From positions 62,001 through 126,000 of the forward strand of contig NZ_NXIE01000006.1 of NCBI RefSeq assembly GCF_004116625.1: a stretch of 64,000 nt of DNA, written 5' to 3'. Below, in pieces: positions 25,050 through 40,919 of the stretch. The DNA comes from Halarcobacter mediterraneus. GTDB taxonomy: Bacteria > Campylobacterota > Campylobacteria > Campylobacterales > Arcobacteraceae. Below the pieces are notes generated by a model, which was not told where the DNA came from, made no database searches, and was given only the letters and a program-made list of their open reading frames with translations. Each line of letters begins with the position of its first letter. Position 1 is the stretch's first letter. A program made the translations under genes and the position numbers.

Positions 25050-25055
25050 TATAAT
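25050..25055 (+). promoter_or_regulatory. -10 box of the host tRNA-Leu gene
   Basis: TATAAT 17 bases before the first base of the truncated tRNA-Leu. After integration this promoter reads through the 5' tRNA stub and then into the element-borne intact tRNA-Leu, with no visible terminator between them. Confidence 0.6.
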
Positions 25056-25072
25056 TTCAGTCCAAAAATAAT

Positions 25073-25112
25073 GCGACCGTGGTGGAATTGGTAGACACGC
25101 TATCTTGAGGGG
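25073..25112 (+). pseudogene. 5' half of host tRNA-Leu(GAG), attL
   Basis: These 40 bases are the acceptor 5' strand (GCGACCG), D arm and anticodon stem/loop up to CTTGAGGGG, then the sequence becomes unrelated. The missing 3' half lies at 45406-45459, whose CGGTCGC acceptor strand pairs perfectly with GCGACCG. Joined at the core, the two make an 85-base tRNA-Leu with anticodon GAG. The att core is 25104-25112. Confidence 0.9.
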
Positions 25113-25144
25113 ACTTTTGAGATTGTAGTGTTGAATTTAAATAT

Positions 25145-25230
25145 GCGAATGTGGTGGAACGGTAGACACGTTAGCTTGAGGGGCTAATGCCAGTACTGGT
25201 GTGAGGGTTCAAATCCCTCCATTCGCACCA
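25145..25230 (+). tRNA. tRNA-Leu(GAG), complete, element-borne
   Basis: A full 86-base class II tRNA. The acceptor stem is GCGAATG/CATTCGC with encoded ACCA, the anticodon stem-loop is TTAGC-TTGAGGG-GCTAA with anticodon GAG, followed by a long variable arm and a T arm with GGTTCAAATCC. It has the same anticodon as the split host gene but a different acceptor stem, so it is not the reconstituted host copy. It lies just inside the element, 32 bases after the att core. Confidence 0.93.
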
Positions 25231-25378: not shown

Positions 25379-25440
25379 TTGCACACTTTACTGCACAGTT
25401 TTAAAAAGTTTCACTAAGTTTGTAATTTTTTACTGCACAC
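25379..25440 (+). repeat. left-end TGCACA repeats, candidate integrase arm sites
   Basis: Three direct copies of a TTGCACA or CTGCACA motif occur at 25379-25386, 25390-25398 and 25431-25440. The same motif recurs twice at the right end (45347-45355 and 45358-45366). Repeats at both ends of an integrated element, close to att, are the usual layout of arm-type sites for tyrosine recombinases. The rest of 25231-25493 holds no gene that I can see. Confidence 0.55.
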
Positions 25441-25493: not shown

Positions 25494-26927
25494 CTATTTT
25501 AAAACTTCTATAGGAGATATAATTACTTCAGTATTAAATAAATTTTCTTTATAACTAAAACTATCAAGGAGATTATCGATATCAATTCTTTCAATATTAA
25601 TTACTAAATCATTGAAATTATTAATGTTTATATTAGACTTTTGAACATAAAGAATTATTTTTTTGATTTTTTGCATATCTTCATTTTTTGCAAAAAACAT
25701 ATCTTTATTAAATAGCAAAGAATATACTAAGACTTGTCTAATATCATCAGATTTTTTTAATACGTTTTCTTTAAACTTATATTTTGCATCAATAATATGA
25801 AAATGATTCTCTTCCTTAATCATAAAATCAGGATATTGATTAATTAATTTTGTTTTACCTTCTTCTAATAAAAAATTACTATTATTAATATTTTTATCTA
25901 TGCTTCCATCTGACTTTACTATTTTTTGTTCACTTTCATTTCCAATATATAATAACTTATCATAATGTGATAATTTCTTTTCTAGAACTTTCTCAAAGAC
26001 TTTTGTTAGGTCAACACTCAAAAACAATTGTACATCTTTCTTTAACTCTGTAAAGAATATTGAGTGTACTAAATTAAAAACTTTTTTATTTTTCTTAATT
26101 TCAATGTTATTTTTATATTTTCTAAAAAACTTATCTAAAGTTTTTTTCGAAATATTATCACTTGAAATATTCTTATGTGTTGATATCTTTATTAATAGAT
26201 TATTGATTTTATTTAATATTTTCAATATTTCTTTATATTCATCTCGTGCATTTTCTTCAAATATATCTAGTCTTTTTTTCTTTAAAAATTTTAAGCTTGA
26301 ATATATAAATTTAATTAGATCTTTTTGAAATGGGGCTTTAATAAATTGATAGTTTTTCAAAGGATTTTCTTCAATTATATTAAGTTCAAATATTTCTTCA
26401 CCAATAATTTTATCACTACATATAATTTGGTTCTTATAGTTTCTTTTATAATTTAACAATGTCCCATATATTTTATTTAATTTTTTTACATAAAATTCTG
26501 CTTCTAATTGTAAAAAACTATTTCCTTTGAAATTTTCAAATAAATCAATAACTTTTTGATTTGATGAATAACTAGAATATAGTTTAAAAAGCTTAATTAA
26601 AAGTTCTTCTATTTTTTTAATTCTTTCTTCTTTATCAGTTATTCCATTAAAATCTATATCTATATCTTTTGGAATAATAAATAAATAGAAATAGTAAACT
26701 TCATCTTTATAGTTAATATCATCAATATATGTAGATATGCTGTCTATATAGTTAGTCTGTCTTTCTAATATATTTCTACTAAATAAATTATTATCTAAAA
26801 TTTTTCGTATTGAAGATGCCGCATTTTGAGGAAATTTCTCTAGTTCATCATAAATATGTTCTATCTTATCTTCAAAATTTTGAAATACTAAATATAATTT
26901 ATTTTCACTAGCATGAGATATAATCAT
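25494..26927 (-). CDS. McrC-like nuclease subunit (LlaJI.R2-like)
   Basis: A 477-residue protein with a helical N-terminal region and a C-terminal PD-(D/E)xK nuclease domain. The catalytic pattern is YPDFMIKEENHFHIIDAKYK near residues 355-375, giving D and D-x-K, followed by a helix with DDIRQVLVYSLLF. This is the McrC layout. In McrBC and LlaJI systems this subunit cuts DNA when driven by the GTP-hydrolysing partner, encoded directly upstream 15 bases away. It is the last gene of the restriction operon. Confidence 0.82.
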   Translation of the reverse strand: MIISHASENKLYLVFQNFEDKIEHIYDELEKFPQNAASSIRKILDNNLFSRNILERQTNYIDSISTYIDDINYKDEVYYFYLFIIPKDIDIDFNGITDKEERIKKIEELLIKLFKLYSSYSSNQKVIDLFENFKGNSFLQLEAEFYVKKLNKIYGTLLNYKRNYKNQIICSDKIIGEEIFELNIIEENPLKNYQFIKAPFQKDLIKFIYSSLKFLKKKRLDIFEENARDEYKEILKILNKINNLLIKISTHKNISSDNISKKTLDKFFRKYKNNIEIKKNKKVFNLVHSIFFTELKKDVQLFLSVDLTKVFEKVLEKKLSHYDKLLYIGNESEQKIVKSDGSIDKNINNSNFLLEEGKTKLINQYPDFMIKEENHFHIIDAKYKFKENVLKKSDDIRQVLVYSLLFNKDMFFAKNEDMQKIKKIILYVQKSNININNFNDLVINIERIDIDNLLDSFSYKENLFNTEVIISPIEVLK

Positions 26928-26942
26928 TTAATTTCTTAATAA

Positions 26943-28691
26943 TTATAGATCATCTTCATAAATATTAAATTTATGAAGAAGTCTAAAGTTTTTCTCACTA
27001 GAATCAATATCTGACAACTCTTTAAGGTTTTCTTTAATCCAAGTGTTATTTTTTACTCTACACATTAAATCCCATCCTAACCTATTGATTTCACTATTTT
27101 TATTATTAAATTTTAAAGAATTTTTAATCATTCCAAAAAAGAATTTTATTGTTTCTTTCTGTTCTCTTAAATTATCAATTATATCTCCATTACTGTTAAC
27201 AATTTTCCATTGTCCAAAGCAATATTTTTCATAGTCAAAAATTTTATTTTCTTCCAAAATATCTTTAAAATGTTGATTTAGTTCTTTACAACAAATAGCA
27301 AAATCATTTCCCTCAATATTCTTATCAAATGTATCTATTGGATCTTTATAAGCTATATTGGCTCTATCTTCCCAATCTGCAAATATATTTAAACTGTATT
27401 CATTAAAATTTGCAGCACCTAATAAATAAAAATTCTTTGGATACACTAACTTCAATGAATTTCCTGAAATTCTATTCGTAATTGGAACAATAGGTATATC
27501 TTTGCAATGTTCATCCATAAAAGTATTCCATTCTTTTATGAAGTCATTTGCACTGTCAAAGTATTCAGTAAAAATCTCATTTCCTTCATCTACTTCTTTT
27601 ACAACTCTTTTTTGTTGAGATTTAAATAAAGGTGTATATTCTGAAAGTAATGATGAAATATCTTGATTGTGAAAGTCATCAAGAAAAACAACGTGATCAA
27701 TTTTTGGATTTACAATAGCAGACATTAGAAATTGAAGAAATTCTCCAAATTTAATTTCTTTTTTTATACTATCAATAGTAATTGCCAAGTCAGTATTTTG
27801 TAATCCTTTATATTCATTTCCAATACCACCTGAAACTGGAACTTTTAAATATTTATAATCAATATGATTTGTTCCAGTTTTGAAAATTTGTTTTTCCTCA
27901 AATTTGTAACTTTTACCAGTATTAGGTTGTCCAATTATAAATTCAATATTATTGATTTTACTATCTACTTTAACTTCTTCTTTTGGATTAATTTTATTTA
28001 AAAATGATTTAAATTTATTTCCATGACCACTTAAATTTTCTTGATTAGATTCTTCCTCTACAGAAGTATTTTCTACTGATTTATCATCTAAAAAATTAAT
28101 GTACATATTTAAAGTTTGTAAAATCTCACCTGAGTAACTGCCTTTTCTATCCCATTCATAATATCTACCTCCAGATGAAAGTTCTGTTCTAATATTATCA
28201 AGAACATTTAGATCGCTAATTTCAAAAATACTAATAGGATTATCTTCATCAATCTTAATAGGCAATATTTCATCTAAGTACTTTATTCTTGTAGAAATTT
28301 TTTTAGTTCCAAGAGTTAAAGACTCAATATACATGCCAAATCGTTCTCTAATATCCTTTTTATCATTTTCAGAAACTTCTTCACCAAAAACCATTTTTAA
28401 TTGTTCTTCACTTATAAGGGCTACTTCATTAGCTTTTTTTGTTTTATAATATAAAGTATAAGGAATATCTATAGTTTTATTCAAGTCTTCTTTCTCATCT
28501 AATTTAATTGACTTGCCATTATTAGTAATTAAAAATTTAAATCTAATATTGAATAACTCATCAGAATTGTCATCAGTATAAACATATAATATATCTTTAT
28601 CTTCTATACTATGATTCTTATATAACTCTTTTTGTAACTCTTCAATTAAAATTTCTTCTTCTTTTCTATTTTTTACTAACCATGTATTCAT
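26943..28691 (-). CDS. McrB-like AAA+ GTPase subunit (LlaJI.R1-like)
   Basis: A 582-residue protein. About 230 N-terminal residues precede an AAA+ domain with Walker A GQPNTGKSY (about 254-262) and Walker B HVVFLDDFHNQDISSLLSEY, closely patterned on McrB. The McrB NTAD-type guanine motif is changed to ANFNEYS (family MNTADRS), so nucleotide preference may differ. It would translocate on DNA and activate the McrC-like nuclease. Its start overlaps the stop of the 204-residue gene as TAATG. Confidence 0.8.
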   Translation of the reverse strand: MNTWLVKNRKEEEILIEELQKELYKNHSIEDKDILYVYTDDNSDELFNIRFKFLITNNGKSIKLDEKEDLNKTIDIPYTLYYKTKKANEVALISEEQLKMVFGEEVSENDKKDIRERFGMYIESLTLGTKKISTRIKYLDEILPIKIDEDNPISIFEISDLNVLDNIRTELSSGGRYYEWDRKGSYSGEILQTLNMYINFLDDKSVENTSVEEESNQENLSGHGNKFKSFLNKINPKEEVKVDSKINNIEFIIGQPNTGKSYKFEEKQIFKTGTNHIDYKYLKVPVSGGIGNEYKGLQNTDLAITIDSIKKEIKFGEFLQFLMSAIVNPKIDHVVFLDDFHNQDISSLLSEYTPLFKSQQKRVVKEVDEGNEIFTEYFDSANDFIKEWNTFMDEHCKDIPIVPITNRISGNSLKLVYPKNFYLLGAANFNEYSLNIFADWEDRANIAYKDPIDTFDKNIEGNDFAICCKELNQHFKDILEENKIFDYEKYCFGQWKIVNSNGDIIDNLREQKETIKFFFGMIKNSLKFNNKNSEINRLGWDLMCRVKNNTWIKENLKELSDIDSSEKNFRLLHKFNIYEDDL

Positions 28692-29305
28692 TATAATATT
28701 TCCTCTAATTCATTAAACTCTTCAACTTTATCAATATGAAACGGAATGCCTAAATATTTTCCACCATTTCCATTATATTCCCAAACAGTAAAATCTTTAA
28801 CTTCATTACTAAACTTTAATTCAGAATCACTTTTATATACATCAAATTTATATAAAAAGTTTTCTGTGTTATTAGTAATACTTTCAGATGTATTTTTATT
28901 TGGATTTTCTATCAATAACCTATATTTATTAATTTCAGTATTGTGTCTTTCAAGTAAATATTTAAAATACCTATCACTTTTTATAAAAAAAGAATAATTA
29001 TTTGAGCCATCAATTAAAATTGTCAAAGTAACGATATCCCCTGGCTGCATATTTGTTCTTATTATATATTTTCCCAAATTTTTTAACCAAAATTCAGGTT
29101 GCTTATGTTGTTGTTTTAAATCTACTTCAAAACTTCCCAAAATATAATCGACTATCTCTATTTTAACAGTATCATAAGAGTGAGTTTTCTTTAAATCATA
29201 AAATTCTTTAAAAATAGGGAATCTATAAACATTGATATATTTGTCTTTCCCAGCATATCCAGTAAGTTGTCTTGTAGCAATTATTTTATATTCATATTTT
29301 TTCAT
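28691..29305 (-). CDS. unknown protein of the restriction operon
   Basis: A 204-residue protein with no family I recognise. The first 115 residues are beta-rich (YEYKIIATRQLTGYAG, then WLKNLGKYIIRTNMQPGDIVTLTILID); this could be a B3-like or other DNA-recognition domain, which is speculation. The C-terminal part ends in IPFHIDKVEEFNELEEIL. It overlaps the McrB-like gene and follows the methyltransferases, so it is probably part of the restriction machinery. LlaJI itself has no separate gene here, which makes it the odd member of the operon. Confidence 0.65.
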   Translation of the reverse strand: MKKYEYKIIATRQLTGYAGKDKYINVYRFPIFKEFYDLKKTHSYDTVKIEIVDYILGSFEVDLKQQHKQPEFWLKNLGKYIIRTNMQPGDIVTLTILIDGSNNYSFFIKSDRYFKYLLERHNTEINKYRLLIENPNKNTSESITNNTENFLYKFDVYKSDSELKFSNEVKDFTVWEYNGNGGKYLGIPFHIDKVEEFNELEEIL

Positions 29306-29308
29306 TAT

Positions 29309-29333
29309 TAAGCACCAAGTTATTTGGTGCTTA
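29309..29333 (-). promoter_or_regulatory. hairpin covering the ribosome site between modification and restriction genes
   Basis: A perfect 10-base stem (29309-29318 with 29324-29333) with a 5-base loop. It ends three bases before the ATG of the first restriction-side gene, so in the mRNA it would occupy the Shine-Dalgarno region. It could be an attenuator or translational brake separating methyltransferase expression from nuclease expression. Confidence 0.55.
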
Positions 29334-29364
29334 TTTTAGCAAAAATTATTATAAAAACAAGTAA

Positions 29365-30852
29365 TTAAATATATTTTTTATAAACTTTTGCAAAAACTTG
29401 TCCCATTAGAGGTGGGACAGCATTACCTATTTGCATATAAGTTTTTAAGTAAGCTCCTAAAAATAAATAGTTATCAGGAAAAGATTGAACTCTTGCAGCT
29501 TCTCTTGGAGTTAAACTTCTTACTTGAGTAGGATGAATATGAGAATGACAATCCATCTTCATATGTGCAGTAATCGTACGTGAAGGTTCATTTTCAATTA
29601 ACTTAAAATATTTATCTTTAAATAAATGGTTTCTATGACTATAAGGCATTATATCTTTTATTGATTCACAAGTTGAGTCTGCACCTTGTTGTAATGTTTT
29701 ATAAATTAGAATATTGTTCTGATTTTGATATCTGGCTTTATGATTAAATGTATAATCAAATTCTTCATCATTATTTATTAATTTTATATAATCATTAGAT
29801 TTATTTTTATATTCATTAATGTCTATCTTTTTACCCGATATTTCACAATCAATTTCTGTTGTATTTTTAACAGTTGGACACTCTAAATTTTTAATATTTT
29901 CAAGAGCATCTTTTAAGACATATTTTGTTTTGTTTTTTATTTCTAATTCAATTTCATTCATTAAAATATCAGGTGTAATATTCTTAGAACTCATATATTC
30001 CTTACTCACACCAACATAAATTAATCTAATTCTTTTTTGAGGTACAGAAAAATCACTTGAATCATATAATTTATATTTTACTTCATAGTCAATCTTTTTA
30101 AAATCTTCTACAACTTCATCAGCAACTTTTAACATACCTCTAACATTTTCCATTAGTATGAACTTAGGTCTTATTTTTTCTACAGCTTTAACATAATATT
30201 TATATAAAACATTTCTTGGGTCATCAATTATTCTTTGCTGATTTGCACTACTAAAAGATTGACAAGGAGGTCCTCCAATTATTACATCTACATCAGACAC
30301 TACATGCTTTTCAATATTATCTACAATTTCTTTTATATCAGCACTCAAAATTTTTTCTGAATTTAAATCTGGGTGATTATACTTATAAGTTTCAATAGCA
30401 CAAGGTTCTATATCATTTGCTAATTCTATTTGATAACCCTCTTTTACAAACCCCCAACTAAAACCACCTGCACCACAAAATAAATCTATTATTTTTGGTT
30501 TATTACTTTCAACTCTTTTATCTTGTAGTTCTTTTCGATATGAGTTATAAAATTTATTTAATATATAATTTGTTTTCTTTTTATTTTTTATATAGAAACT
30601 TAATACTTTTAATAAATCTCCATATTCACTTTTTAAAATCTTTTTCAATAATGGTAAATCATCTTCAATTTTTAATATTCCAATTAAAGCTAATTCTTTT
30701 AAAACACCTTTTTTATCTATTTCTTGTTTATCTAAATCTATTTTATTTTTTTTACAAAACTTTATTATCAGTTGATTTATAATATTCACTTTTTCAATAA
30801 AAAACTTTTTATCATTTGAATCTACTAAATCATTTATATTTCTAAATATCAT
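29365..30852 (-). CDS. C5-cytosine DNA methyltransferase (second of pair)
   Basis: A 495-residue m5C methyltransferase. An N-terminal extension of about 125 helical residues precedes motif I (IDLFCGAGGFSWGF), motif IV GGPPCQSFSS with the catalytic Cys, motif VI MENVRG, motif VIII PQKRIRLIYVG and motif X QIGNAVPP. It methylates cytosine in double-stranded DNA. It starts three bases after the other C5 methyltransferase ends. Two such enzymes with McrB and McrC-like partners match the LlaJI layout, where each methylase modifies one strand of an asymmetric site. Confidence 0.93.
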   Translation of the reverse strand: MIFRNINDLVDSNDKKFFIEKVNIINQLIIKFCKKNKIDLDKQEIDKKGVLKELALIGILKIEDDLPLLKKILKSEYGDLLKVLSFYIKNKKKTNYILNKFYNSYRKELQDKRVESNKPKIIDLFCGAGGFSWGFVKEGYQIELANDIEPCAIETYKYNHPDLNSEKILSADIKEIVDNIEKHVVSDVDVIIGGPPCQSFSSANQQRIIDDPRNVLYKYYVKAVEKIRPKFILMENVRGMLKVADEVVEDFKKIDYEVKYKLYDSSDFSVPQKRIRLIYVGVSKEYMSSKNITPDILMNEIELEIKNKTKYVLKDALENIKNLECPTVKNTTEIDCEISGKKIDINEYKNKSNDYIKLINNDEEFDYTFNHKARYQNQNNILIYKTLQQGADSTCESIKDIMPYSHRNHLFKDKYFKLIENEPSRTITAHMKMDCHSHIHPTQVRSLTPREAARVQSFPDNYLFLGAYLKTYMQIGNAVPPLMGQVFAKVYKKYI

Positions 30853-30855
30853 ATT

Positions 30856-32034
30856 CTAATTTTTCTCACTTAAAAATTTTTTCAATACTTTTGCAATTTG
30901 TTTAGCAAATAAAGGTGGGACAGCATTACCAATCTGTTTATATTGTTGTGTTTTAGAACAAGGGAAAACAAAATTATCTGGGAAAGATTGAAGTCTTGCA
31001 GCTTCTCTTGGTGTTAATGTTCTTTCTTGAGAATGATCTGGGTGAATAAATTGATTACCATCTTTATACAAATGTGCAATAATAGTTTTTGATGGTTTAT
31101 CAAAAAATTGAACAACATAACTATTGTTAAATAATCTTTTTTTAGGATGAATTAAATGCGCTTTATTTTCATATAATTCTTCTAAAGTCCATTTATTTTT
31201 ACTCATATGTTTGTAACGTTCTTTATCTAAACTATTATGGTTTCTTGCCACATGATGATGTAAATAATCATAATTCTCAGGTCTAATTTGTTCCAAATAC
31301 TTTGATACTTTTTTAGGTCTAAATTTCACTAAATCTTTACCCTCTCCTGGTAATAAACTAGGTAAATCAGAAATTGCTTCTTCTACTGTTACTTTCTCTA
31401 TTTTCTTTGAAACTTCATTCAATTCATTATATACATCATTTACATCAATATTTAAATCTCTTCTAACACCAATTAATATAACTCTTTTCCTTTCTTGAGG
31501 AACACCAAAGTCAACTGCATTTAAAAGAATTTTATCTTTGTCCTCTATTATTTTATAATTCTTTTTCATATCTTCATAAATTTTATGAATTATCAATTCA
31601 CCATTTACTTTAGTGGATAATATTCCACTGACATTTTCAAAAACGAAAAATTTTGGTTTATAGTGATTTAATACTTTAATATAATTCTCATATAAATAGT
31701 TTCTTGGGTCTTTTTTCATTCCATGGGGGTCTCTAGCTTTACCTTGCGATGAGAAAGATTGACAAGGAGGTCCACCAATTATTACATCAACATCATTGTC
31801 TTGAACACAATCATCAATTATTTTTAATATATTTTCACTAGTAATATCTGTAGGTTTAACTTTTTCAATTTCATTTTCATTATATTTATAAAATCTCATT
31901 CTCTCTTTTAAAGTATCACAAGCATATTTATCAAACTCTACGTGAGATAGAGCTTTATATCCCTCTTGATAAAATCCTTCAGCAAAACCTCCAGCACCTG
32001 CAAATAAATCTATAAATGTATATTTCTTTTTCAT
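30856..32034 (-). CDS. C5-cytosine DNA methyltransferase (first of pair)
   Basis: An m5C methyltransferase of about 392 residues with motif I FIDLFAGAGGFAEGF right at the N-terminus, motif IV GGPPCQSFSSQGKARDP, motif VI FENVSG, PQERKRVILIGVR and QIGNAVPP. The ATG at 32034 (MKKKYTFIDLF) is preferred over one 17 codons upstream, because family members begin close to motif I. It is the first gene of the restriction-modification operon and probably protects one strand of the recognition site. Confidence 0.93.
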   Translation of the reverse strand: MKKKYTFIDLFAGAGGFAEGFYQEGYKALSHVEFDKYACDTLKERMRFYKYNENEIEKVKPTDITSENILKIIDDCVQDNDVDVIIGGPPCQSFSSQGKARDPHGMKKDPRNYLYENYIKVLNHYKPKFFVFENVSGILSTKVNGELIIHKIYEDMKKNYKIIEDKDKILLNAVDFGVPQERKRVILIGVRRDLNIDVNDVYNELNEVSKKIEKVTVEEAISDLPSLLPGEGKDLVKFRPKKVSKYLEQIRPENYDYLHHHVARNHNSLDKERYKHMSKNKWTLEELYENKAHLIHPKKRLFNNSYVVQFFDKPSKTIIAHLYKDGNQFIHPDHSQERTLTPREAARLQSFPDNFVFPCSKTQQYKQIGNAVPPLFAKQIAKVLKKFLSEKN

Positions 32035-32089
32035 ATAACCAATCAATTTTTTATTGGAATTATATCGCAAAGTTTCTGGAAACACAATT

Positions 32090-33580
32090 TCATTGCAAAT
32101 TGTAATTCTTATTTTTTAAATAATCTTCCTTACTAAAAACACCCTCCTCAAAAGGATAATCCTTAACAGTCTCCTCAATATACTTTTTCATATCATTTTC
32201 AAACTTTTCATTTTTCTTTTTTGAATTGATTTTTATATCTTTTATAAAGTTATCAGGAACATATAAAGTTCTTACATTATAGTATTCACTTTCATTTTTT
32301 ATTATCATTTCACCAACTCCAAATTCTTTTACATTTATCCCCATTTCTTCCAATGGCTCTTTATCAATAACCGAATGAATACCCTCATCACTTTCTGTTT
32401 TATGCAAAATCCTAAAAATAGTATTATTTTTAATTGAGTTAGTTATTCCACTACCAACAGAAGTGAAAATCTGTGTCGCATAAAACAATTTAAACCCACT
32501 ACTTCTTGAAGTTCTAAACAAACTTTCAATAATTTCTTTTATTTTATCTTGTATAAACTTTTCTTCTTTTGTATTTGCTTTATAATCTAATATTTCAGCA
32601 ATTTCATCAAAGAAGACATAAATATAATAATTAGTAAATTTCTTCTTATTATGGGCTTTTAAGAACTTCTGTCTTGCTTTATTCATTATGTCTAATCTAA
32701 CTAATTTTTTATAGAGTTCTTTTCTATTATCTGTATAGGTAAAGATTTTATTAGTTTTAAATCTCTTTTCTAAATTTTCGTAAGGTTGGCTTTCAACTCC
32801 ACCCTTAAAGTCTATAAAATTCAATTCATAAACAGTATCAAAGTTATAAAAAATAGAAAATAATACATGATTTAGGGTATTTGATTTACCACCTCCCGAA
32901 GTTCCAAGTAGTGCAAAAGAGTGAGGGAGAGAAGAAAGACTTATATATTTAGCAACTCTTTTTTCTTTAAATCCACCTTCAAATCCTAAAAATAGATAAC
33001 CTTTTTTCATATAGTCTTTTGGAGATAATCCTTTAATCTCTTCAATACTAGGAGTAGGATTTTTAAATCTAACCATAACCCCTAATTTGTTATATCTCTT
33101 AATCTCACAACTACCCATTTTATTTCTTTGTGTCATATTCTCAAATTGTTTTAAAAACTTGTCATATTCCATTGTTTCCCCTGCAACAACTTCATATATA
33201 TACCCATCTTTTAGTTTTTTCTTTAAATAGTAATTCTCTAATCCAAAGTTTGCTAATTTTCTTTGCTCTATCTTTTTTGAAATAATTGTTTTAATATATA
33301 GAAAAGTAAAAATAAACCCTAAACTAATATGTAAGATATAGGTTTTAACTACTTCTATAAATCCACTAACTTTTGAAATAAAATATATATTTTTAATCTC
33401 ACTAATTATTGAAGAAAATAAGATTTTAAAATTTAGTTCTTGTAAATAATAGATTTTAAAAATAGCAAGGGAAAAAATAAAAGAAGAGATTAAAATAAAT
33501 AAAATAACTCCTACAACATAGGCACCGTTTAAGTTGCCAAATTTATCATAAGAGCCAAATTCATATTTTACTTTTGTCAT
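32090..33580 (-). CDS. FtsK/TraB-like DNA translocase
   Basis: A 496-residue protein with two N-terminal membrane helices (about 21-42 and 80-98), then an FtsK/SpoIIIE motor. Walker A is GTSGGGKS (226-233), Walker B is VFFDEIAEIL, and the later ATQIFTSVGSGITNSIKNN block is typical of FtsK-type pumps. No KOPS-binding gamma domain is seen. This layout matches coupling proteins of Gram-positive conjugation (TcpA) and the TraB pumps of actinomycete elements more than VirD4. It probably moves element DNA between cells or across the membrane. Confidence 0.83.
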   Translation of the reverse strand: MTKVKYEFGSYDKFGNLNGAYVVGVILFILISSFIFSLAIFKIYYLQELNFKILFSSIISEIKNIYFISKVSGFIEVVKTYILHISLGFIFTFLYIKTIISKKIEQRKLANFGLENYYLKKKLKDGYIYEVVAGETMEYDKFLKQFENMTQRNKMGSCEIKRYNKLGVMVRFKNPTPSIEEIKGLSPKDYMKKGYLFLGFEGGFKEKRVAKYISLSSLPHSFALLGTSGGGKSNTLNHVLFSIFYNFDTVYELNFIDFKGGVESQPYENLEKRFKTNKIFTYTDNRKELYKKLVRLDIMNKARQKFLKAHNKKKFTNYYIYVFFDEIAEILDYKANTKEEKFIQDKIKEIIESLFRTSRSSGFKLFYATQIFTSVGSGITNSIKNNTIFRILHKTESDEGIHSVIDKEPLEEMGINVKEFGVGEMIIKNESEYYNVRTLYVPDNFIKDIKINSKKKNEKFENDMKKYIEETVKDYPFEEGVFSKEDYLKNKNYNLQ

Positions 33581-33772
33581 TTAATTTTCTTCTATTAAAA
33601 TTTTTGGTTCTTTTAACATCTCTTCTTTAATCTCTTTATGCTTTTTTATCTCTTCATTTACATTTATAGATACATTATTTGTATTATTAAAAATCATATT
33701 TAAAAGAAGTAAAACAATAACAAGTAATCTATAAGGTATCTTTTCAGTAATTAAAAATTTAAAATAATTCAT
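33581..33772 (-). CDS. small single-helix membrane protein
   Basis: A 63-residue protein with one membrane helix (about 13-29, YRLLVIVLLLLNMIF) and a charged C-terminal tail rich in Lys and Glu. It directly abuts the translocase gene and overlaps the next small gene by 14 bases, so it is probably an accessory of the translocase. Confidence 0.6.
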   Translation of the reverse strand: MNYFKFLITEKIPYRLLVIVLLLLNMIFNNTNNVSINVNEEIKKHKEIKEEMLKEPKILIEEN

Positions 33773-33962
33773 ATTCTTCCTTTAATAATTCAATCTCTTC
33801 AAATTGAAGTTTTATATACTCTTCATTTGTAAAGAGTTCAGTTTTATTTTTATGACAATTTGTCGCAAGTTTTGATTTTTTATTATGAAGTTCTTCTAAT
33901 TTAAAATAAGTAGCCACATCCATATTATTTATTGTTGTATCAATTGAAGTATCTATAATCAT
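33759..33962 (-). CDS. small helical protein of the transfer operon
   Basis: A 67-residue soluble, mostly helical protein of unknown function. It overlaps the 63-residue gene downstream and abuts the 55-residue gene upstream. A GACAATTTGTC palindrome (33854-33864) lies inside it, the same motif found near 40.8 and 41.3 kb. Confidence 0.55.
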   Translation of the reverse strand: MIIDTSIDTTINNMDVATYFKLEELHNKKSKLATNCHKNKTELFTNEEYIKLQFEEIELLKEEYELF

Positions 33963-34130
33963 TTAAAACACCTCTAACAATTTTTTATCAAGTAATAGTA
34001 ATAACTCTTTATAGTTGTTATTTAAAACCTCTAATTGTTGTTTTAATATTAAGTAATCTTCAACACTTTCAATATATTCTAATCTCTCACAGAATATTAA
34101 ATTCAATTCTTGTATGTAATGTTCAATCAT
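33963..34130 (-). CDS. tiny coiled-coil protein, 55 aa
   Basis: A 55-residue frame from MIEHYIQELN to KKLLEVF, with strong heptad character (LILKQQLEVLNNNYKELLLLLDKK). The ATG follows AAAGGGTTTGAA and the stop directly abuts the ATG of the next gene. It fills an otherwise unexplained gap in a tightly packed operon, which is the main support for it being real. Confidence 0.55.
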   Translation of the reverse strand: MIEHYIQELNLIFCERLEYIESVEDYLILKQQLEVLNNNYKELLLLLDKKLLEVF

Positions 34131-34165
34131 TTCAAACCCTTTAAAGCTAAAAGAAAAATTTTCTT

Positions 34166-34726
34166 TTAGGCTTTTGGTTGATTTAATAAAATAGGTTTTT
34201 CAACACTTGAATAGAATGTTCCAAAATCTGTTGTTGCTACATTTACACCTCTAACAACTACTTCTTTCCCTTTAAGATTATCAAGTTCAATTTTTTTAGT
34301 GTTTTTAATCTTGATATTAAATAAATCTGTTCTTGTTCCATTTGAGATAATACTTTGAATTGTTGAGTGAGTAAGTTTTTTATTTGTATTTTTATCTATT
34401 GAAGTGCTTTCAATAATATTATCAACTTTTAAAGTGATTTCTCTATTTATTTTAAAATCTTCATCTATATCAACTTTTTTAATATCACTACCAGCATAAA
34501 AAACTTTAATTCCATTTTTATATTCTTTTGGCTCTTCAACTTTTACAGTTTTACCAATCAAAGCTTTTAAACTATCTTCTTTATATAGTTTATGTATCTT
34601 AACAGTATGTTTTAACAATTTACCATTGTCAAAAGAGATGTTTTGAATTTGAAAAGTTCCCTCTTCTTCATTGATTTCATAACCACTAATTTTTACAAAT
34701 AAATCTACTTTTAAAAAATTTTTCAT
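34166..34726 (-). CDS. OB-fold-like protein, possible ssDNA-binding protein
   Basis: A 186-residue, beta-rich protein made of two similar halves, each with a hydrophobic core and a GK(T/E)V(K/V)V strand: LIGKTVKVEEPKEY in the first half and LKGKEVVVRGVNV in the second. That pattern suggests a double OB fold. Its place at the start of the transfer operon, on an element with a rolling-circle initiator, suggests it coats single-stranded DNA. This is inference; I do not recognise the family. Confidence 0.45.
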   Translation of the reverse strand: MKNFLKVDLFVKISGYEINEEEGTFQIQNISFDNGKLLKHTVKIHKLYKEDSLKALIGKTVKVEEPKEYKNGIKVFYAGSDIKKVDIDEDFKINREITLKVDNIIESTSIDKNTNKKLTHSTIQSIISNGTRTDLFNIKIKNTKKIELDNLKGKEVVVRGVNVATTDFGTFYSSVEKPILLNQPKA

Positions 34727-34856
34727 TGTCTTTTTTCCTTATAATTTTTATATTTTGAAACTTCTTTTTATGTTTCTATTTTTATTATAAGAAGTAATTT
34801 TAATTTTTTTAAAGATGAAGTTAGAAATTTTGAAATTTGTTAAAAAAGAAGATTTT

Positions 34857-34884
34857 AAACCCAAACTAAAAAAAGTTTAGGTTT
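34857..34884 (-). terminator. terminator of the secreted-protein operon
   Basis: Eleven-base arms (34857-34867 and 34874-34884, one G-T pair) with a loop of six A (T on the minus strand), followed on the minus strand by TTAAAATCTTCTTTTTT. It lies five bases past the end of the 296-residue gene. Confidence 0.75.
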
Positions 34885-34888
34885 AGAA

Positions 34889-35779
34889 TTATAGATTTTT
34901 TGTATAAAGTATTTTGATATTTTTATCGTCATAATCTTTATACATATCATAAGTTTTAGCAGTTTTTACTAATAATTCAATTCTAATAAGTTTTATATCA
35001 GTGATAGTTTTAAGTTGCTGATAACTTAGATTAGTTTTTTTACCATTAGAAGAGTTTCCTATTATAGGTTTAGTAGTGTTATAATTTATAAAATCTTTTG
35101 AATAACTTGAATCTCCAGGCACTCCAATTTTACTATCTACAACTTTATAAACAAACCTAAGATAATATCCATTAGGATATTTATATTTTGAGATATGTTC
35201 TTTTGCTTTATCCTTTTTTATTGGGAAATTAAAATATTTATAAATAGCTTTTTTATCACTTTCATCAATAAGATTTAAATATGTTTCATAAAATTCATTA
35301 TCTAATCTATGAAAGTAATATTTATCATTCATAATATATTTACTAACAAAAAAGGGGAAATATTCTTCATTAAAATTATATTTATCCCGTTTAACCTCTT
35401 TTATTAAAAAGAACTCTTTATTTTTAATATTATCTTCTGCTTTTGCCATTTTGTCTAACATAAAGTTTTTATTTTTAGCTAATACTTCATTTGCTTCAAA
35501 TTCATTGTTTATATCTTCCCAAAACTTTTTACTTTGTTTATCAATTAAGAGTTTTTCTTTTCTATCAAGATTATTGTATTTTCCTTGAGCTTCATATAAT
35601 TTAAATTTTGCTTTTGCCATATAAGCTAAAAAGGCTTCACTATTTGTATCAAAGCTTTTACTTTTTTCAAGGTTATAAAGAAAAAAATCTAAACTTTCAT
35701 TAGATGTTGTTTCTAAATTTATTGGACTTGAAAATAGTATATTAAAGCATAAGCCTAAAAGTAAAACTATTTTTTTCAT
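34889..35779 (-). CDS. secreted protein of unknown function
   Basis: A 296-residue protein with a clear signal peptide (residues 1-18, FNILFSSPI). The mature part is helical and rich in Lys, Asp and Tyr (KAEDNIKNKEFFLIKEVKRDKYNF, then YKDYDDKNIKILYTK). No domain is recognised. It is the last gene of a four-gene operon of exported proteins on the element. Confidence 0.6.
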   Translation of the reverse strand: MKKIVLLLGLCFNILFSSPINLETTSNESLDFFLYNLEKSKSFDTNSEAFLAYMAKAKFKLYEAQGKYNNLDRKEKLLIDKQSKKFWEDINNEFEANEVLAKNKNFMLDKMAKAEDNIKNKEFFLIKEVKRDKYNFNEEYFPFFVSKYIMNDKYYFHRLDNEFYETYLNLIDESDKKAIYKYFNFPIKKDKAKEHISKYKYPNGYYLRFVYKVVDSKIGVPGDSSYSKDFINYNTTKPIIGNSSNGKKTNLSYQQLKTITDIKLIRIELLVKTAKTYDMYKDYDDKNIKILYTKNL

Positions 35780-35798
35780 TTATTCTCTCCTTTTAGAA

Positions 35799-36050
35799 CT
35801 ATTCAGACTTTTGAGGAATAGGTTTCTTAGCAAACATAATCCCAACAATTAAAAGAACAACTCCAACAGCTGTAATTACTCCATATTTTATCCATAAAGA
35901 AGTCATTGAAGTTCCAGACATTTGAAGTCCCATCTCTATCATTTTATTTCCTTGTGCTCCTATTAAGTCCAATACATTTATTAAACCAACAAAGCCAACT
36001 AATAAACCTGCTATGATTAAAATTATTCCACCTATTTGTTTTCCAGTCAT
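35799..36050 (-). CDS. small two-helix membrane protein
   Basis: An 83-residue protein from MTGKQIGGIIL, with membrane helices near residues 5-26 and 45-68. The ATG at 36050 overlaps the lipoprotein stop (TAATG); a longer frame begins 27 bases earlier without a ribosome site. Function unknown. A transfer, exclusion or envelope role is possible from its company. Confidence 0.6.
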   Translation of the reverse strand: MTGKQIGGIILIIAGLLVGFVGLINVLDLIGAQGNKMIEMGLQMSGTSMTSLWIKYGVITAVGVVLLIVGIMFAKKPIPQKSE

Positions 36051-36580
36051 TACAATACTCCGTCTATGATTTTCCATTCTTTATTTATTTTTTCAAGTTT
36101 TACAGTATGTTGTTTTGATTTTCCTTGACTATTTGTTTCTTCAAATTTTACTGTTGCTTCATTTCCACTTGAACTAACTTCTGAATTTAAGATTTTCATT
36201 TTTGTGTCTTTTTGTTTTTCCATTACTTCTGTCATTATTTCTTTAAAACAAAAACTTACTGTTTTATTTTGGATTTCACTTGAAAAACTTTGATACCCAT
36301 TACTTGTTCTATCTAAGACTTTTGAATCAATATTTTCTTTATTTAACAAAGGAATTACTTTATCTTTAAACTTTTTATTTGTTCCACAACTAAAAATTAT
36401 ATTTCTTGAAAATTCATCTTTAATATCTGAACTTACTGTTTTTGATACTTGATTAAAATCTGCATTTTTTAAACCACTTATATAATTTTCAACAACATTT
36501 TCTGGACTACTTTCCATACAACCACTTAAAACAAGTGTACTAACAACTCCAACTATTCCTATTTTTATTTTATTTTTCAT
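36050..36580 (-). CDS. lipoprotein with DUF4878-like domain
   Basis: A 176-residue lipoprotein: signal peptide with lipobox LVLSGC (Cys21), then a helix PENVVENYISGLKNADF and a C-terminal beta sheet ending EKINKEWKIIDGVL. That pattern is typical of DUF4878-type (NTF2-like) lipoproteins. It sits in the operon of exported element proteins. Lipoproteins on conjugative elements often act in surface exclusion; that role here is inference. Confidence 0.65.
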   Translation of the reverse strand: MKNKIKIGIVGVVSTLVLSGCMESSPENVVENYISGLKNADFNQVSKTVSSDIKDEFSRNIIFSCGTNKKFKDKVIPLLNKENIDSKVLDRTSNGYQSFSSEIQNKTVSFCFKEIMTEVMEKQKDTKMKILNSEVSSSGNEATVKFEETNSQGKSKQHTVKLEKINKEWKIIDGVL

Positions 36581-36645
36581 ATTTCTCCTTTTTTTATTTG
36601 TTTTAATTTTTTTAAAATTTAAAGTTTTAATTTAACTCCTCCTTT

Positions 36646-37080
36646 TTAATATGATTTATCTATATATTTTCTTTCTTCTCTACATAATTTAAAAACATCA
36701 TTTTTATTATAAAATCCTGCATTTATTTTGATTGGTTTTAATTGATAACAAACCATTCCATTTAAATATTCTTTTTTAGGATTTAACTTATAGATATATT
36801 TGTTATATTTGATTTTTTCTTGATACATTGTTCCAAAGGTAAAGGTATTATTTTTAAGTTCTACACCCATACTTTTTAGATATCCACTTGAAGAACTTAC
36901 TTTTTTATTGTCTAAGAAGTTTATATTTATCTCTTTACCTATTAGATTTAAAAAGCTAATCTTTTTATTTTTATCATAGTGACTAACTATCCAGCTACCT
37001 CTTAACTCTTCAAACTTATCAAATGAAAAAAGATTTGTTGTTAGTAGTAAAATACACATTAGTAAATTTTTTTTATACAT
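36646..37080 (-). CDS. secreted protein of unknown function, 144 aa
   Basis: A 144-residue exported protein with a signal peptide (residues 1-19, TTNLFSF). The mature domain is beta-rich and resembles lipocalin-like stress or META-type small domains by eye (ELRGSWIVSHYDKNKKISFL), with two cysteines near the end. It is the first gene of the operon read away from the XRE repressor and lies directly next to the operator cluster. Confidence 0.55.
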   Translation of the reverse strand: MYKKNLLMCILLLTTNLFSFDKFEELRGSWIVSHYDKNKKISFLNLIGKEININFLDNKKVSSSSGYLKSMGVELKNNTFTFGTMYQEKIKYNKYIYKLNPKKEYLNGMVCYQLKPIKINAGFYNKNDVFKLCREERKYIDKSY

Positions 37081-37092
37081 TGTTTTCCTTTC

Positions 37093-37199
37093 ACTCTGTT
37101 ATAACAGATTAGATTATATTGCATTAAAACTTAAATTTAGTCTGTAATTACAGATTGAAAAGATTTTTTATTTAAATTAATATCACTCTGTAATAAAAG
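37093..37199. promoter_or_regulatory. triple operator of the XRE repressor
   Basis: Two perfect dyads, CTGTTATAACAG (37096-37107) and CTGTAATTACAG (37142-37153), and a third related copy starting CACTCTGTAATAAAAG (37184-37199). All share (C/G)TCTGT(T/A)AT. They fill the 130-base gap between the divergent XRE gene and the exported-protein operon, a phage-like switch arrangement. Confidence 0.7.
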
Positions 37200-37210
37200 A
37201 GGATAAATTT

Positions 37211-37474
37211 ATGGAACAATTTAATGATTTTGAAGACTTTTCAGAAGAGCAAAAAGAACAATTTTTTAAAAATGTTGGTAAGAATGTATCAAGAATAAGA
37301 AAAAAACATAAATTATCCCAGTTAAAACTTAGCCAACTAATAGGACATAAATCAACTTCTTTGGTAAGTGGAGCAGAAATTTATTATAATAAACAACATT
37401 TTTCATTAGAACATTTAGCTTTAATTGCTTTTGTATTAAATGAAGATATAACTGAATTTTTCAAATCTATATAA
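37211..37474 (+). CDS. XRE-family repressor
   Basis: An 87-residue DNA-binding protein with a helix-turn-helix (NVSRIRKKHKLSQLKLSQLIGHKS, about residues 24-50) and a short C-terminal helix. The length is that of a minimal Cro/C-type regulator. It is divergent from the exported-protein operon and its 3' end overlaps the convergent rep gene by eight bases. It probably represses itself and the operon through the dyads directly upstream. Confidence 0.85.
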   Translation: MEQFNDFEDFSEEQKEQFFKNVGKNVSRIRKKHKLSQLKLSQLIGHKSTSLVSGAEIYYNKQHFSLEHLALIAFVLNEDITEFFKSI

Positions 37475-38870
37475 ACTGATACTTATTAAAATATCCCTCT
37501 TCTATCTTTTCAATAGAAAAAGGATTTATTTTTAACTTCTCAAATTCATAATTATATATTGGTATTTGTTCATTATGTTTTTTATTATAAATAAGCCATT
37601 TTTTGAAATATACTTTTTGAATAGCTTTTGAGTTATACTCTTTTATATAATTATCAATATTTTTTAAAATATTTCTTTTGAAAGAATTTATATTTTTTTT
37701 ATTCTTTAGCTTTTCAAACTCTTCTTTTATTGCTTGAAAATTTATTGATATTCTTTTAACTTTCTCTTCTTCAAATCTGAAATAACCTTTTAATATAATT
37801 TTCTCTATTTGGTAATAAATTGGAATATTACCTCTTTTAAAATATTTTATTATCTTTGGTTTATATTGATTTAAAAACTTATAAACTATCTCTATTTTTT
37901 CTTGATTAGTATGTCTAAAATTAGAGCTTGTGAAAAATCTTGTTTTTGAAAAATATCTTTTATATTGATTATAAAAAAGATTCTCAGATTTTGTTGTTTT
38001 TAAAAGATATTTATTTAAATAAGTTGAAGCTTTTGCATTTTTTAATATTTCATATGTTGTCTCTTTTAATTTAAAATTATCTATTGTCATAGAATAAACC
38101 TCTTCTACTATATTTAAAAAGGTTTTATCTATATAAAATAATGAATGAAGATGTCCATCTAAACTCTTATGAGGTTCTAGGATTTTTATAAAATCAATGT
38201 TTATTACTTCTTTATTAGTTATGTTATTGCTTTTACAATATCTTCTAATTTTATATTTTAATGTGTGATAGAAATATCTATGAATTTCATTTAATAGTTT
38301 TAAACCCTTTTCAACATTTTCTTCAAATTTATCCTTTGAATTATAGGTATTTGTTTCAAAACCATTTTTATTATATTTATGAAATTGCTTGTTTGGCAGA
38401 GTAAAGGTTATAAATACTTTTTCTTTTTGTTTATTTACATAATCTAAATACATAACCTTAGCTATCTTTTTATAGCTATATAATTTATCTTTATTTGATA
38501 GAAAATCTCCTTTTTTATACTCTTTAAATTTTAATTCTACTTCATTTATATCGTTTGATTTAACATCATAATAAAAGTCATTAGCATATTTAAACATACC
38601 ATTTTGAAGACTATAATCTTTAACTTTATTAGTTTTAATATTTTTTGATTTTAGATTATTTTTTACAAAGTATTCAAGTAATTTTGAAGATTTTACAATA
38701 TAAGAGTATTCAAGTTTATTTTTTAATTCTTTAATAGTATCAGCATAAGAAAGATTTTTAATACCTAAATTATTTAGATTATATTGTAAGCTATTTAATT
38801 GTTTATCACTTAAATTATATCTTGAAAAATTCAATAAACTAACATCTACTTTTGAAAAATTTACACTCAA
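37467..38870 (-). CDS. HUH rolling-circle replication initiator
   Basis: A 467-residue endonuclease of the HUH type. Motif I is KVFITFTLPN (151-160). Motif II is LDGHLHSLFY with the metal-binding H240-x-H242. Motif III is ASTYLNKYLL with Tyr284 and Tyr288, the two-tyrosine pattern of phage gpA-type initiators. It would nick one strand at an origin and start rolling-circle replication of the excised element, and could double as relaxase. Three strong hairpins lie just upstream of its start. Confidence 0.78.
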   Translation of the reverse strand: MSVNFSKVDVSLLNFSRYNLSDKQLNSLQYNLNNLGIKNLSYADTIKELKNKLEYSYIVKSSKLLEYFVKNNLKSKNIKTNKVKDYSLQNGMFKYANDFYYDVKSNDINEVELKFKEYKKGDFLSNKDKLYSYKKIAKVMYLDYVNKQKEKVFITFTLPNKQFHKYNKNGFETNTYNSKDKFEENVEKGLKLLNEIHRYFYHTLKYKIRRYCKSNNITNKEVINIDFIKILEPHKSLDGHLHSLFYIDKTFLNIVEEVYSMTIDNFKLKETTYEILKNAKASTYLNKYLLKTTKSENLFYNQYKRYFSKTRFFTSSNFRHTNQEKIEIVYKFLNQYKPKIIKYFKRGNIPIYYQIEKIILKGYFRFEEEKVKRISINFQAIKEEFEKLKNKKNINSFKRNILKNIDNYIKEYNSKAIQKVYFKKWLIYNKKHNEQIPIYNYEFEKLKINPFSIEKIEEGYFNKYQFI

Positions 38871-38976
38871 TAATTTAACCTTTTTTTCTAATATACTTAT
38901 ATTATAAGATGTAATTATTGATTTTTTTTAGACTATCTATGAAATTTATAATATTTCTTATATTGCTCACAGTTTA

Positions 38977-39138
38977 TTAAAAGTTAGTCAAGGCAACTTT
39001 TAAGAATTTGAAAATTATATATTTTATATGCTTTCTTGGTAGGAGGTGGGGAAGTGAAAAACTTTTGCTATTTTTCACTTTTCCCCAAAAGGGATTAAAC
39101 TATCTATTTTATATTATAAAAATAGATTGAATAGTTTA
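38977..39138. other. hairpin cluster, candidate rolling-circle origin
   Basis: The 348-base gap upstream of the initiator holds three inverted repeats in a row: 38977-38985 with 38995-39003 (9-base stem), 39048-39061 with 39071-39086 (GGGGAAGTGAAAAA arms, two-base bulge) and a nested dyad 39096-39138. The second has unusually GC-rich ends for this DNA. Such structures are typical of double- or single-strand origins beside rep genes. No nick site could be identified. Confidence 0.5.
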
Positions 39139-39218
39139 AAAATGAAATTTTAGAGTTTATCATTTAAGATTATTAAAAAACTATTACTTTTTAATTTACT
39201 TATTTAAAATTTTGAATA

Positions 39219-40622
39219 TTAAAAATTGAATTTTATCTCACTATCATTATTTTTTATATCTTCCATTTTACCACTTTTATCAATTACAATATCTTTATTA
39301 TTCTCTTTTATTTCATTAGTTTCTTCTTTAATAGAAGTTAAATCTGATGGTTCAATTGGTTTCTTAGGTGGTGTATCTTCTTTACATAAATCTATATTAT
39401 TCTTTTTAGCAAATATTTTCATTCGCTCAACTATATCTTCATTTAATTCTGTTGGCTCCAATATTTTTACATATTCAATAGTATGAAAAATAGTTGATAT
39501 TATATATTCTTTATCATCTTCTGCAAAAATATAGCATTTATTAGGTAATGTATCTAAACCGTACTCTTTTGAAAAGTCTTGCTTTTCTTCTTCTGTAACG
39601 TATAACTTCATATTTGATAATGGTTTAACTTGGAAATATTCAACTATATTTGTATCAATTTCTAATAACACTGTTTTAGATGGTTGATTCTTTTTATATG
39701 ATTCAACAGAAAGCATTGAGTAACTAGGATTAAATAAATATTTTTGATTAGTGGAAGATTCTTCTACTTCATAATTACTATAAGTTTTATCTTTTAATGT
39801 AATTCTTTCAATTTTATCAAAGTCAATTTCATGCTTTAAATCATCTTCATCTACTTCATATCTTAAAACTTTATATTGATTATGTCCCTCTTTCTTATAT
39901 ATAATCTGCATTGGATAAATTGAAAATTCTTCATCCTTATTATATATTTTTATTGTTAAATCATCTAATTCATTTATCGCATCAATAATTGTAGCTTCTA
40001 TAAAATTTAGTTTATTATGATAGATTGAAGGTTTTATTATATATTTAATAACTTCATCAATATTCTCAAAATATTTAGATACAGTAGAATCATAATGTTT
40101 TCCAAGATATCCTAATAAAGAAGGGGTCAGAAATTTCAATACATTGTTATCTATAATCTCATATCTACTATCTTTAAACCAGTTTTTTGAAAACAATGCA
40201 TAATTTGGCTGTTTATGGTTTAATAGTCTCAAGCATTTTAAAAGACGTAAAGCTTCTTTTGAGGTCGAGTCATTCTTATTTTCTTTTATTTTAAAAAACA
40301 GTTTTTCAACTAATTCCTCTTGAGAAACTTCATTATAATATTGATGAATTTTGAATTTAGAAGAATCTACAAATACATTTAAATCATTATTTATACACAT
40401 AGCTTCAAGTATTGCGTTAGCTAAAATATAAGACTTATTAGTCTCCTTTGGTTTGTATTTAAAGCAGGTTTTTTCTAAAGACTCTATATATTCTTCAACT
40501 TTCTGTCTTAATTTTTCTTCTTGAAGTTCAGATAAATTAAATTTATCACTTAATCTTTCAATTTCATCTTCAACTTCATTGAAGTCAATACTTCTTATTT
40601 CTTTTTCTAGTTCTTTTTTCAT
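39219..40622 (-). CDS. WYL-domain-like regulator
   Basis: A 467-residue protein. Residues about 210-310 resemble a WYL domain: IYPMQIIYKKEGHNQYKVLRY followed by FDKIERITLKDKTY. Then comes a WCX-like strand pattern (KTVLLEIDTNIVEYFQVKPL) and a low-complexity acidic tail. The N-terminus is coiled-coil (about 1-55); I see no clear helix-turn-helix. WYL proteins are ligand-sensing regulators common near phage-defence genes. It is divergent from the methyltransferase operon across a 297-base regulatory gap. Confidence 0.5.
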   Translation of the reverse strand: MKKELEKEIRSIDFNEVEDEIERLSDKFNLSELQEEKLRQKVEEYIESLEKTCFKYKPKETNKSYILANAILEAMCINNDLNVFVDSSKFKIHQYYNEVSQEELVEKLFFKIKENKNDSTSKEALRLLKCLRLLNHKQPNYALFSKNWFKDSRYEIIDNNVLKFLTPSLLGYLGKHYDSTVSKYFENIDEVIKYIIKPSIYHNKLNFIEATIIDAINELDDLTIKIYNKDEEFSIYPMQIIYKKEGHNQYKVLRYEVDEDDLKHEIDFDKIERITLKDKTYSNYEVEESSTNQKYLFNPSYSMLSVESYKKNQPSKTVLLEIDTNIVEYFQVKPLSNMKLYVTEEEKQDFSKEYGLDTLPNKCYIFAEDDKEYIISTIFHTIEYVKILEPTELNEDIVERMKIFAKKNNIDLCKEDTPPKKPIEPSDLTSIKEETNEIKENNKDIVIDKSGKMEDIKNNDSEIKFNF

Positions 40623-40801
40623 AATAAATTATACAAACTTAATTCTTAGAGGGAGATTTCCCACACCACTTTGCAAAAATTCCATTATCCATTAAATGAC
40701 TCTTTAAATAAACAATTTAAAAGTCATTGATGTGTTATTTTAAAATCTATTGTTAAAAAGTTTAAATTTTACATTCTCAATGATTTTAATTTCAGTGTAG
40801 A

Positions 40802-40898
40802 CGACAATTTGTCGGAATTTGAATAGGTCAGTCTATTTAAATCACTAGATTAAAATTATGACCTATTCATACCTATTCACTTATTTTTTGTAAGTGAA
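40802..40898. promoter_or_regulatory. divergent control region with dyads
   Basis: The gap between the WYL-like and methyltransferase genes holds CGACAATTTGTCG (40802-40814), an inverted pair GAATAGGTCA/TGACCTATTC (40821-40830 and 40859-40868) with a further ACCTATTC copy at 40871-40878, and a hairpin 40876-40898. These are likely binding sites for the element's own regulators. The GACAAWTTGTC dyad recurs at 41319-41329 and 33854-33864. Confidence 0.5.
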
Positions 40899-40919
40899 AT
40901 ATTCATTAAGGAAAAGGCT

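Follow-up and report, generated by a model that had tools for sequence, protein, structure and literature searches.

The principle of breaking a host tRNA gene while bringing in a copy of the same isotype is already known. In tRNA-dependent lysogeny, described for the mycobacteriophages Fionnbharth, LeBron, Gaia and others (Guerrero-Bustamante & Hatfull 2024, PMC10865867), it was proven by tRNA mutants that form clear plaques, and the authors suggested that it may occur outside the actinobacteriophages. Two S. meliloti prophages lie in the middle of a tRNA-Leu(UAG) gene and carry a functional copy of it (PMC11476347). The Lactobacillus johnsonii prophage Lj965, as cited in PMC10865867, likewise does not rebuild its tRNA and contains the cognate one. 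Here we describe a locus of Halarcobacter mediterraneus, contained in a stretch of 64,000 nucleotides of contig NZ_NXIE01000006.1 that is hereafter called the window. Like tRNA-dependent lysogeny, it involves a tyrosine integrase, an attB in a host tRNA gene, a short core (8-17 bp in the phages) and a tRNA that is not rebuilt, and the element supplies a tRNA of the same isotype and different sequence; the broken host tRNA is the only copy. The initial annotation of this DNA had proposed a tRNA-replacement or addiction strategy; as a principle, this is not new after the 2024 study.

The element is 20.3 kb long, between positions 25104 and 45414 of the window, and interrupts the host tRNA-Leu(GAG) gene at the anticodon loop, where the shared core is the 9-bp CTTGAGGGG (Table 1). 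The split-gene layout proposed in the initial annotation is real. The 5' half is identical or near-identical to that of the intact gene in relatives, and the two halves, when joined in a script at the core, give an 85-nt tRNA-Leu(GAG) with a perfect cloverleaf. The 3' half had been placed at the right coordinates, with the correction that the start at 45406 already counts the shared core; the 32 bases by which the second tRNA was said to lie inside attL are, precisely, the spacer from the core to that tRNA. It was also right that neither element end rebuilds the missing half: ARAGORN found no tRNA at the junctions, CTTGAGGGG is the sole sequence that they have in common, and the opposite, attP-type junction gave no tRNA when joined in silico. 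The one tRNA that ARAGORN reported in the window is the element's own, complete, with the anticodon GAG and downstream of the host TATAAT, as described. About 22% of its positions are unlike those of the host gene, and sequence comparison bears out that the acceptor stem is among the differences.

Table 1. Features of the split tRNA-Leu(GAG) locus and of the element integrated in it (window coordinates).
Feature	Position	Strand	Basis or remark
Host promoter -10 (TATAAT) of the native tRNA-Leu(GAG) gene, now 5' of the element tRNA	25050..25055	+	sequence
attL: 5' half of host tRNA-Leu(GAG), first 40 nt, including core CTTGAGGGG (25104-25112)	25073..25112	+	
Element spacer, 32 nt, core to element tRNA	25113..25144	+	no space for own promoter
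Complete element-borne tRNA-Leu(GAG), CCA encoded	25145..25230	+	ARAGORN, BLAST, pattern searches
Left-arm arm-type integrase sites, TGCACA at 25380, 25392 and 25434	25380..25439	.	repeat counts
Variable cargo	25494..43856	.	Pfam, PHROGs, PADLOC
85-aa ORF overlapping int, candidate excisionase	43920..44177	+	all-against-all comparison of element ORFs; in 9/9 complete elements
Tyrosine integrase, 389 aa	44174..45343	+	Pfam, PHROG, alignment motifs
Right-arm arm-type integrase sites, TGCACA at 45349 and 45360	45349..45365	.	repeat counts
attR: core (45406-45414) and 3' half of host tRNA-Leu(GAG), last 54 nt	45406..45459	+	

The integrase matched PF00589 (6e-18) as well as PF22022 and PF14659 in Pfam, and an integrase family in PHROGs (1e-41), and it keeps the GLRTGE...GH...HY motifs in the alignment. 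The hexamer TGCACA occurs in two or three copies near each end of the element and about 0.05 times per kb internally. Because Pfam and PHROG searches gave no match for the 85-aa ORF, its candidate role as an excisionase is read from its position.

The element tRNA is the only complete GAG gene of this genome. The tRNA search, with 150 of 286 candidates scored, gave at least 40 matches, among them four tRNA-Leu (TAG, TAA, CAA and GAG), of which the single GAG tRNA is the element's. Since this search scored part of the candidates, the genome was also queried in two independent ways. With the joined tRNA as query, BLAST returned no more than its halves, the tRNA of the element and 22 nt of another tRNA-Leu, and the pattern of the 5' arm and anticodon matched just two sites, both at the window locus. 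Neither search found an intact native tRNA-Leu(GAG) in the genome, and on this point the initial annotation stands. Elsewhere in the same genome a cluster of four tRNA genes, Asp-Val-Glu-Lys, occurs twice in tandem (L009, G000:C8:15700-16700). CTT makes up 24% of the leucine codons in ORFs of the host flanks, so loss of the GAG tRNA should be costly; CTC is rare. A strict pattern found a GAG-type gene in 94 of 104 family genomes. The GAG tRNA may be essential in this host or, since a tRNA-Leu(UAG) with modified U34 might partly decode CUU and CUC, important rather than essential.

Relatives retain the site in its unoccupied form. In eight genomes of the same genus the tRNA-Leu(GAG) is uninterrupted and 87-99% identical, with one tRNA at each of these sites and no second one in the 8 kb examined; the empty site that the initial annotation suggested looking for is therefore present, and a tRNA of the 25145-25230 type is not found at these element-free loci. 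Each of the 16 genus genomes showed one complete GAG gene, native or foreign, including those in which the native gene is broken. The genome G406 holds an intact native tRNA-Leu(GAG) on one contig (C14) and a layered element end on another (C72; L153, L162); this end may belong to a free circle, to a concatemer or to a secondary integration. This genome retains the intact host gene alongside the element, so obligate exchange is not universal. Two further observations concern single genomes. G051 (L179, G051:C1) has an intact tRNA-Leu(GAG) that is 95% identical to the window element tRNA and has the host-type acceptor stem GCGACCG/CGGTCGC; it is a possible donor or chimeric replacement. The intact gene of G024 (L175, G024:C8; 7801-7885) is preceded at a distance of 5.7 kb by a second, truncated sequence that resembles tRNA-Leu(GAG) (2122-2194), perhaps one more relic of an element with a tRNA.

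The arrangement recurs across the class. A pattern consisting of the 5' half and, shortly after it, a second GAG tRNA was run on 104 family genomes and 397 class genomes, and together with integrase searches it yielded nine complete elements, in which the integrase, the tRNA and both ends are all present (the window, G078, G023, G027, G077, G373, G290, G396 and the Sulfurimonas contig L059/G459), spread over three family-level groups. The same layout in eight other complete elements, and zero matches of a reversed-pattern control in 397 genomes, exclude chance. The rebuilt host gene is an intact tRNA-Leu(GAG) at all nine loci, and the cores are 7-16 bp long. A left-end tRNA-Leu(GAG), the feature that the initial annotation suggested looking for in related elements, is common to all nine, as are an ORF of 85-90 aa and the tyrosine integrase; the rest is variable cargo. 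The single GAG gene, the empty sites and this recurrent architecture give good comparative support to the earlier proposal that the element compensates for the gene it breaks and that integration swaps one tRNA gene for another. In all nine the acceptor stem of the element tRNA is unlike that of the host gene while its pairing is kept, which may stop the dead 5' half from pairing with the 3' strand of the element tRNA within one transcript. The integrases fall into at least three groups with about 40-50% identity between groups, and arm-type repeats (TGCACA-like or TCTCGG) are found at both element ends and rarely inside. Partial or decayed cases were found in G011, G007, G101, G354, G442, G406, G458 and the nested G414, and a further group with spacers of 11-21 nt in G030, G040 and G041.

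Some matches were set aside. Those of the class-wide TTGAGGGGGTAGTG/TTGAGGGGGTGGTG...CACCA pattern were rejected as full-length tRNAs followed by a second tRNA; a case of this type, G053, has Leu-GAG and Leu-CAA by ARAGORN. An integrase with 32% identity in G009 and G010 (L029, L031) lies near tandem tRNA-Asn genes, and this locus is probably an ordinary tRNA-targeting island of another type.

The element moves between genera and brings its tRNA along. The window element and that of G078, a different genus, are 99.0% identical over 20.39 kb with identical tRNAs (100%), and their left host flanks have no similarity. Matched pairs indicate that the sequence of the element tRNA is independent of that of its host's gene. 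The host genes of G077 and G078 are identical and their element tRNAs 76% alike; in G373 and G290 it is the element tRNAs that are identical, with host genes 84% alike. In Mantel tests the element tRNA correlated weakly with the integrase (p 0.11, a value distorted by the truncated G290 integrase) and weakly with the host tRNA (p 0.07). Among the matches listed from viral contigs, phages and plasmids there was no phage or plasmid form, and the integrases there were distant, at about 31% identity or less.

The position of the element tRNA points to the host promoter as its source of transcription. A perfect TATAAT is present 13-18 nt 5' of the tRNA at all eight empty host-type sites of the genus, and the distance in the window is 17 nt. 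The best -10-like hexamer in the window spacer agrees at 4/6 positions versus 6/6 for the host hexamer. The element-tRNA spacer is 31-44 nt in most other elements and 11 nt in G030, which is too short for any promoter. From the -10 conserved at these sites, the poor window spacer and the 11-nt spacer of G030, we infer, as the best reading for the genus of the window, that the element tRNA would be transcribed from the captured host promoter. The comparison thus supports well the capture claimed in the initial annotation, with transcription itself as the expected consequence. In three hosts outside the genus (G027, G373 and G396) the tRNA follows an atpE-type gene and has no clear TATAAT beside it, and the spacers of G396 and G354 contain a 5/6 -10-like hexamer; capture in these cases could be read-through or partial.

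At one locus an element has targeted the tRNA of another, and decayed elements leave theirs behind. In G414 a decayed host 5' half is followed by a G396-type spacer and then by half of an element tRNA, its 5' part. Next come another spacer, unrelated to the first, and a different element's tRNA in full; the host 3' half lies far downstream. Given this order with two different element tRNAs, a second, different element entered and replaced the tRNA of the first. G078, where an extra element-tRNA half lies between the host half and the full tRNA, is compatible with such an event and was dropped as proof of nested integration, since the extra 71-bp unit could also be slippage between the two cores. 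Decay is seen at L083 (G011), where a left end and tRNA 93% identical to that of the window remain without integrase and with a 3' half that lacks the core, at L085 (G013), with just two 3'-half relics near a foreign tRNA, and in G290, where a stop lies within the integrase. In all three, no GAG gene other than the foreign tRNA was detected. Imprecise deletion or loss of the integrase or att site would make the element indispensable in such cases. In G017 the sole pattern match is a tRNA 98% identical to the element tRNA of G027, and in G092 it is 93% identical to an element tRNA; no element is visible near either. These two and the G051 tRNA could be fixed replacements or donors.

The cargo of the window element comprises two C5-cytosine methylases, an FtsK-like ATPase, an HTH regulator, a ParB/N6-N4 methylase, a second methyltransferase-like protein and unknowns, and many other cargo ORFs have no family match in Pfam, PHROGs or PADLOC. 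Its PHROG matches are to integrase, methyltransferases or ParB-like proteins, FtsK-like proteins and a repressor-like HTH; capsid, tail and terminase are absent from them. The scanned ORFs include no relaxase or type IV secretion genes, the two features of an ICE, and the element is not one; the FtsK/SpoIIIE-like ATPase (PF01580) is the sole transfer-type gene. Among the relatives, G396 has BREX genes, G459 a type IIG enzyme together with a helicase, and G373 PsyrTA-like genes; G011 has, by inspection, type I restriction-like genes, with homologues in G373 and G077. On gene content the elements look like mobile defence islands more than phages, with cargo that appears to be mostly defence genes. 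Two adjacent ORFs at 25494-28691 are placed like McrB/McrC, and the 582-aa protein has a P-loop-like GQPNTGKS; they matched nothing in Pfam, PHROGs or PADLOC, and a McrBC-like assignment was considered and given up for want of family support. They are possibly a divergent restriction pair beside the two C5 methylases. The FtsK/SpoIIIE-like ATPase at 32090-33580 has an apparently hydrophobic N-terminus, and a 467-aa protein at 37467-38870 has an HLHS motif and resembles an HUH replication protein by eye, a likeness without family support; the two are possibly a transfer or replication module.

Our best explanation, to which we assign a probability of about 0.84, is that an integrative element splits the sole host tRNA-Leu(GAG) gene and supplies its own copy behind the host promoter, and that the replacement is the next target. 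The tyrosine integrase would recombine attP into the host's one tRNA-Leu(GAG) gene at the anticodon loop and, because the shared core is short, the target would be destroyed. The element would survive because it carries a complete and different tRNA-Leu(GAG) immediately inside attL. Integration would bring this tRNA under the host promoter, whose TATAAT is at 25050, and a transcript of the host leader, the dead 5' half and the element tRNA would be processed into a working tRNA; in the MFE fold of the leader transcript, a model of unmodified RNA and no proteins, the cloverleaf is not cleanly separate. Excision would restore the host gene and remove the element tRNA from the host promoter, so that one tRNA-Leu(GAG) would be expressed in either state. 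As the element tRNA retains the TTGAGG(G) loop and can be targeted in its turn, successive elements could replace the tRNA again, and upon decay of the integrase or att site the foreign tRNA would remain as the sole gene. The extension of this scheme to the whole class has, in our judgment, somewhat better than even odds. It would be a 'tRNA relay': integrative defence islands that are not phages would each bring an obligatory tRNA-Leu(GAG) without a promoter, which is on only after correct integration behind the host promoter. Each replacement would be the next attachment site, and through stacking and decay foreign versions would displace a core tRNA gene again and again, also in genomes that are now element-free.

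Other explanations bear on different parts of this scheme. The element tRNA could have its own promoter, or be served by read-through from int in the circle, with capture of the host promoter incidental and the tRNA merely complementing. The phage tRNA of Fionnbharth does have its own promoter (PMC10865867), and the 5/6 hexamers of G396 and G354 and the three hosts without a clear -10 are in keeping with this. We nevertheless find it unlikely, because a -35, a -10 and a start would hardly fit, if at all, into spacers of 11-44 nt, with the best candidate of the window at 4/6, and because the nine complete elements, from three integrase groups, all have the tRNA at their promoter-proximal edge, when any position would otherwise do. 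It is scarcely credible that the locus is an ordinary island in which the second tRNA came along by chance or is a native gene in tandem, the loss of GAG decoding being tolerated. The rarity of CTC and the presence of tRNA-Leu(UAG) would suit such an island, but the empty sites have a single tRNA, a same-anticodon tRNA occupies the same place in 9/9 complete elements, and both the conservation of GAG-type genes in the family and the share of CTT codons speak against tolerance. No element of this integrase family was found that splits the tRNA without carrying a GAG tRNA.

A further question is for what the replacement tRNA is selected. The initial annotation had raised addiction, and the arrangement might primarily be an addiction or anti-deletion device, with the tRNA selected since its loss kills segregants. 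Imprecise deletion would indeed take away the sole GAG tRNA, and the decayed elements L083 and L085 persist. The normal route of loss is harmless, however, as precise excision rebuilds the host gene, so that the intact element is not addictive; survival of the integrant is a simpler selection and was shown experimentally for Fionnbharth (PMC10865867). Addiction as the primary function is thus improbable, distinctly more so than a promoter within the element, and the term is only half right, applying once imprecise deletion or loss of the integrase or att site has taken place. Still harder to credit is that the replacement tRNA is kept to escape tRNA-cleaving defences or toxins, with compensation secondary. 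Such evasion was raised as a possibility for phage tRNAs (PMC10865867), and the acceptor stem is unlike that of the host in all nine elements. The anticodon loop, kept because it is the recombination core, is unchanged though, and among the genes identified in the window element there is no tRNA nuclease. Survival of the integrant by an exchange of tRNA genes behind the host promoter is the reading that we retain.

This reading takes tRNA-dependent integration beyond the actinobacterial phages, to elements of another phylum that are not phages and mostly carry defence genes, and shows how a core gene of translation can be replaced time and again by mobile DNA. It provides a concrete route for the foreign replacement of a core tRNA gene, which bears on tRNA evolution, and two testable ideas, that an element gene is switched on by landing behind the promoter of its target and that the replacement gene is the next landing site. 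It also bears on island prediction tools that assume a restored target, and on integration vectors that would select their own correct insertion.

Swapping of gene versions is known from SXT in prfC and from the phages e14 and P21 in icd, where the element supplies the replacement part of the broken gene. Those are protein-coding targets completed in frame, whereas the present elements supply a whole separate tRNA gene. Classical tDNA islands of the Islander type (PMC4383910) likewise have a tyrosine integrase and a tRNA gene as target, but they restore the target from island sequence; the window element does not, only CTTGAGGGG being shared. Tycheposons were considered as a parallel and set aside, as the available part of their description does not mention tRNA replacement. 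The S. meliloti prophages (PMC11476347), known from two strains, and the single prophage Lj965 differ in being phages; the available accounts describe neither promoter capture nor stacking. With no match to capsid, tail or terminase in the window element, we regard it as working like tRNA-dependent lysogeny and do not class it as a member. The present elements are not recognisable phages and belong to another phylum. Their tRNA is fused to attL behind the host promoter, unlike that of Fionnbharth, which lies elsewhere with its own promoter, and it serves itself as attB, with decayed copies leaving a foreign tRNA fixed. Promoter fusion, the tRNA as the next attB, fixed foreign tRNAs and a non-phage carrier are thus the variant features of a known principle.
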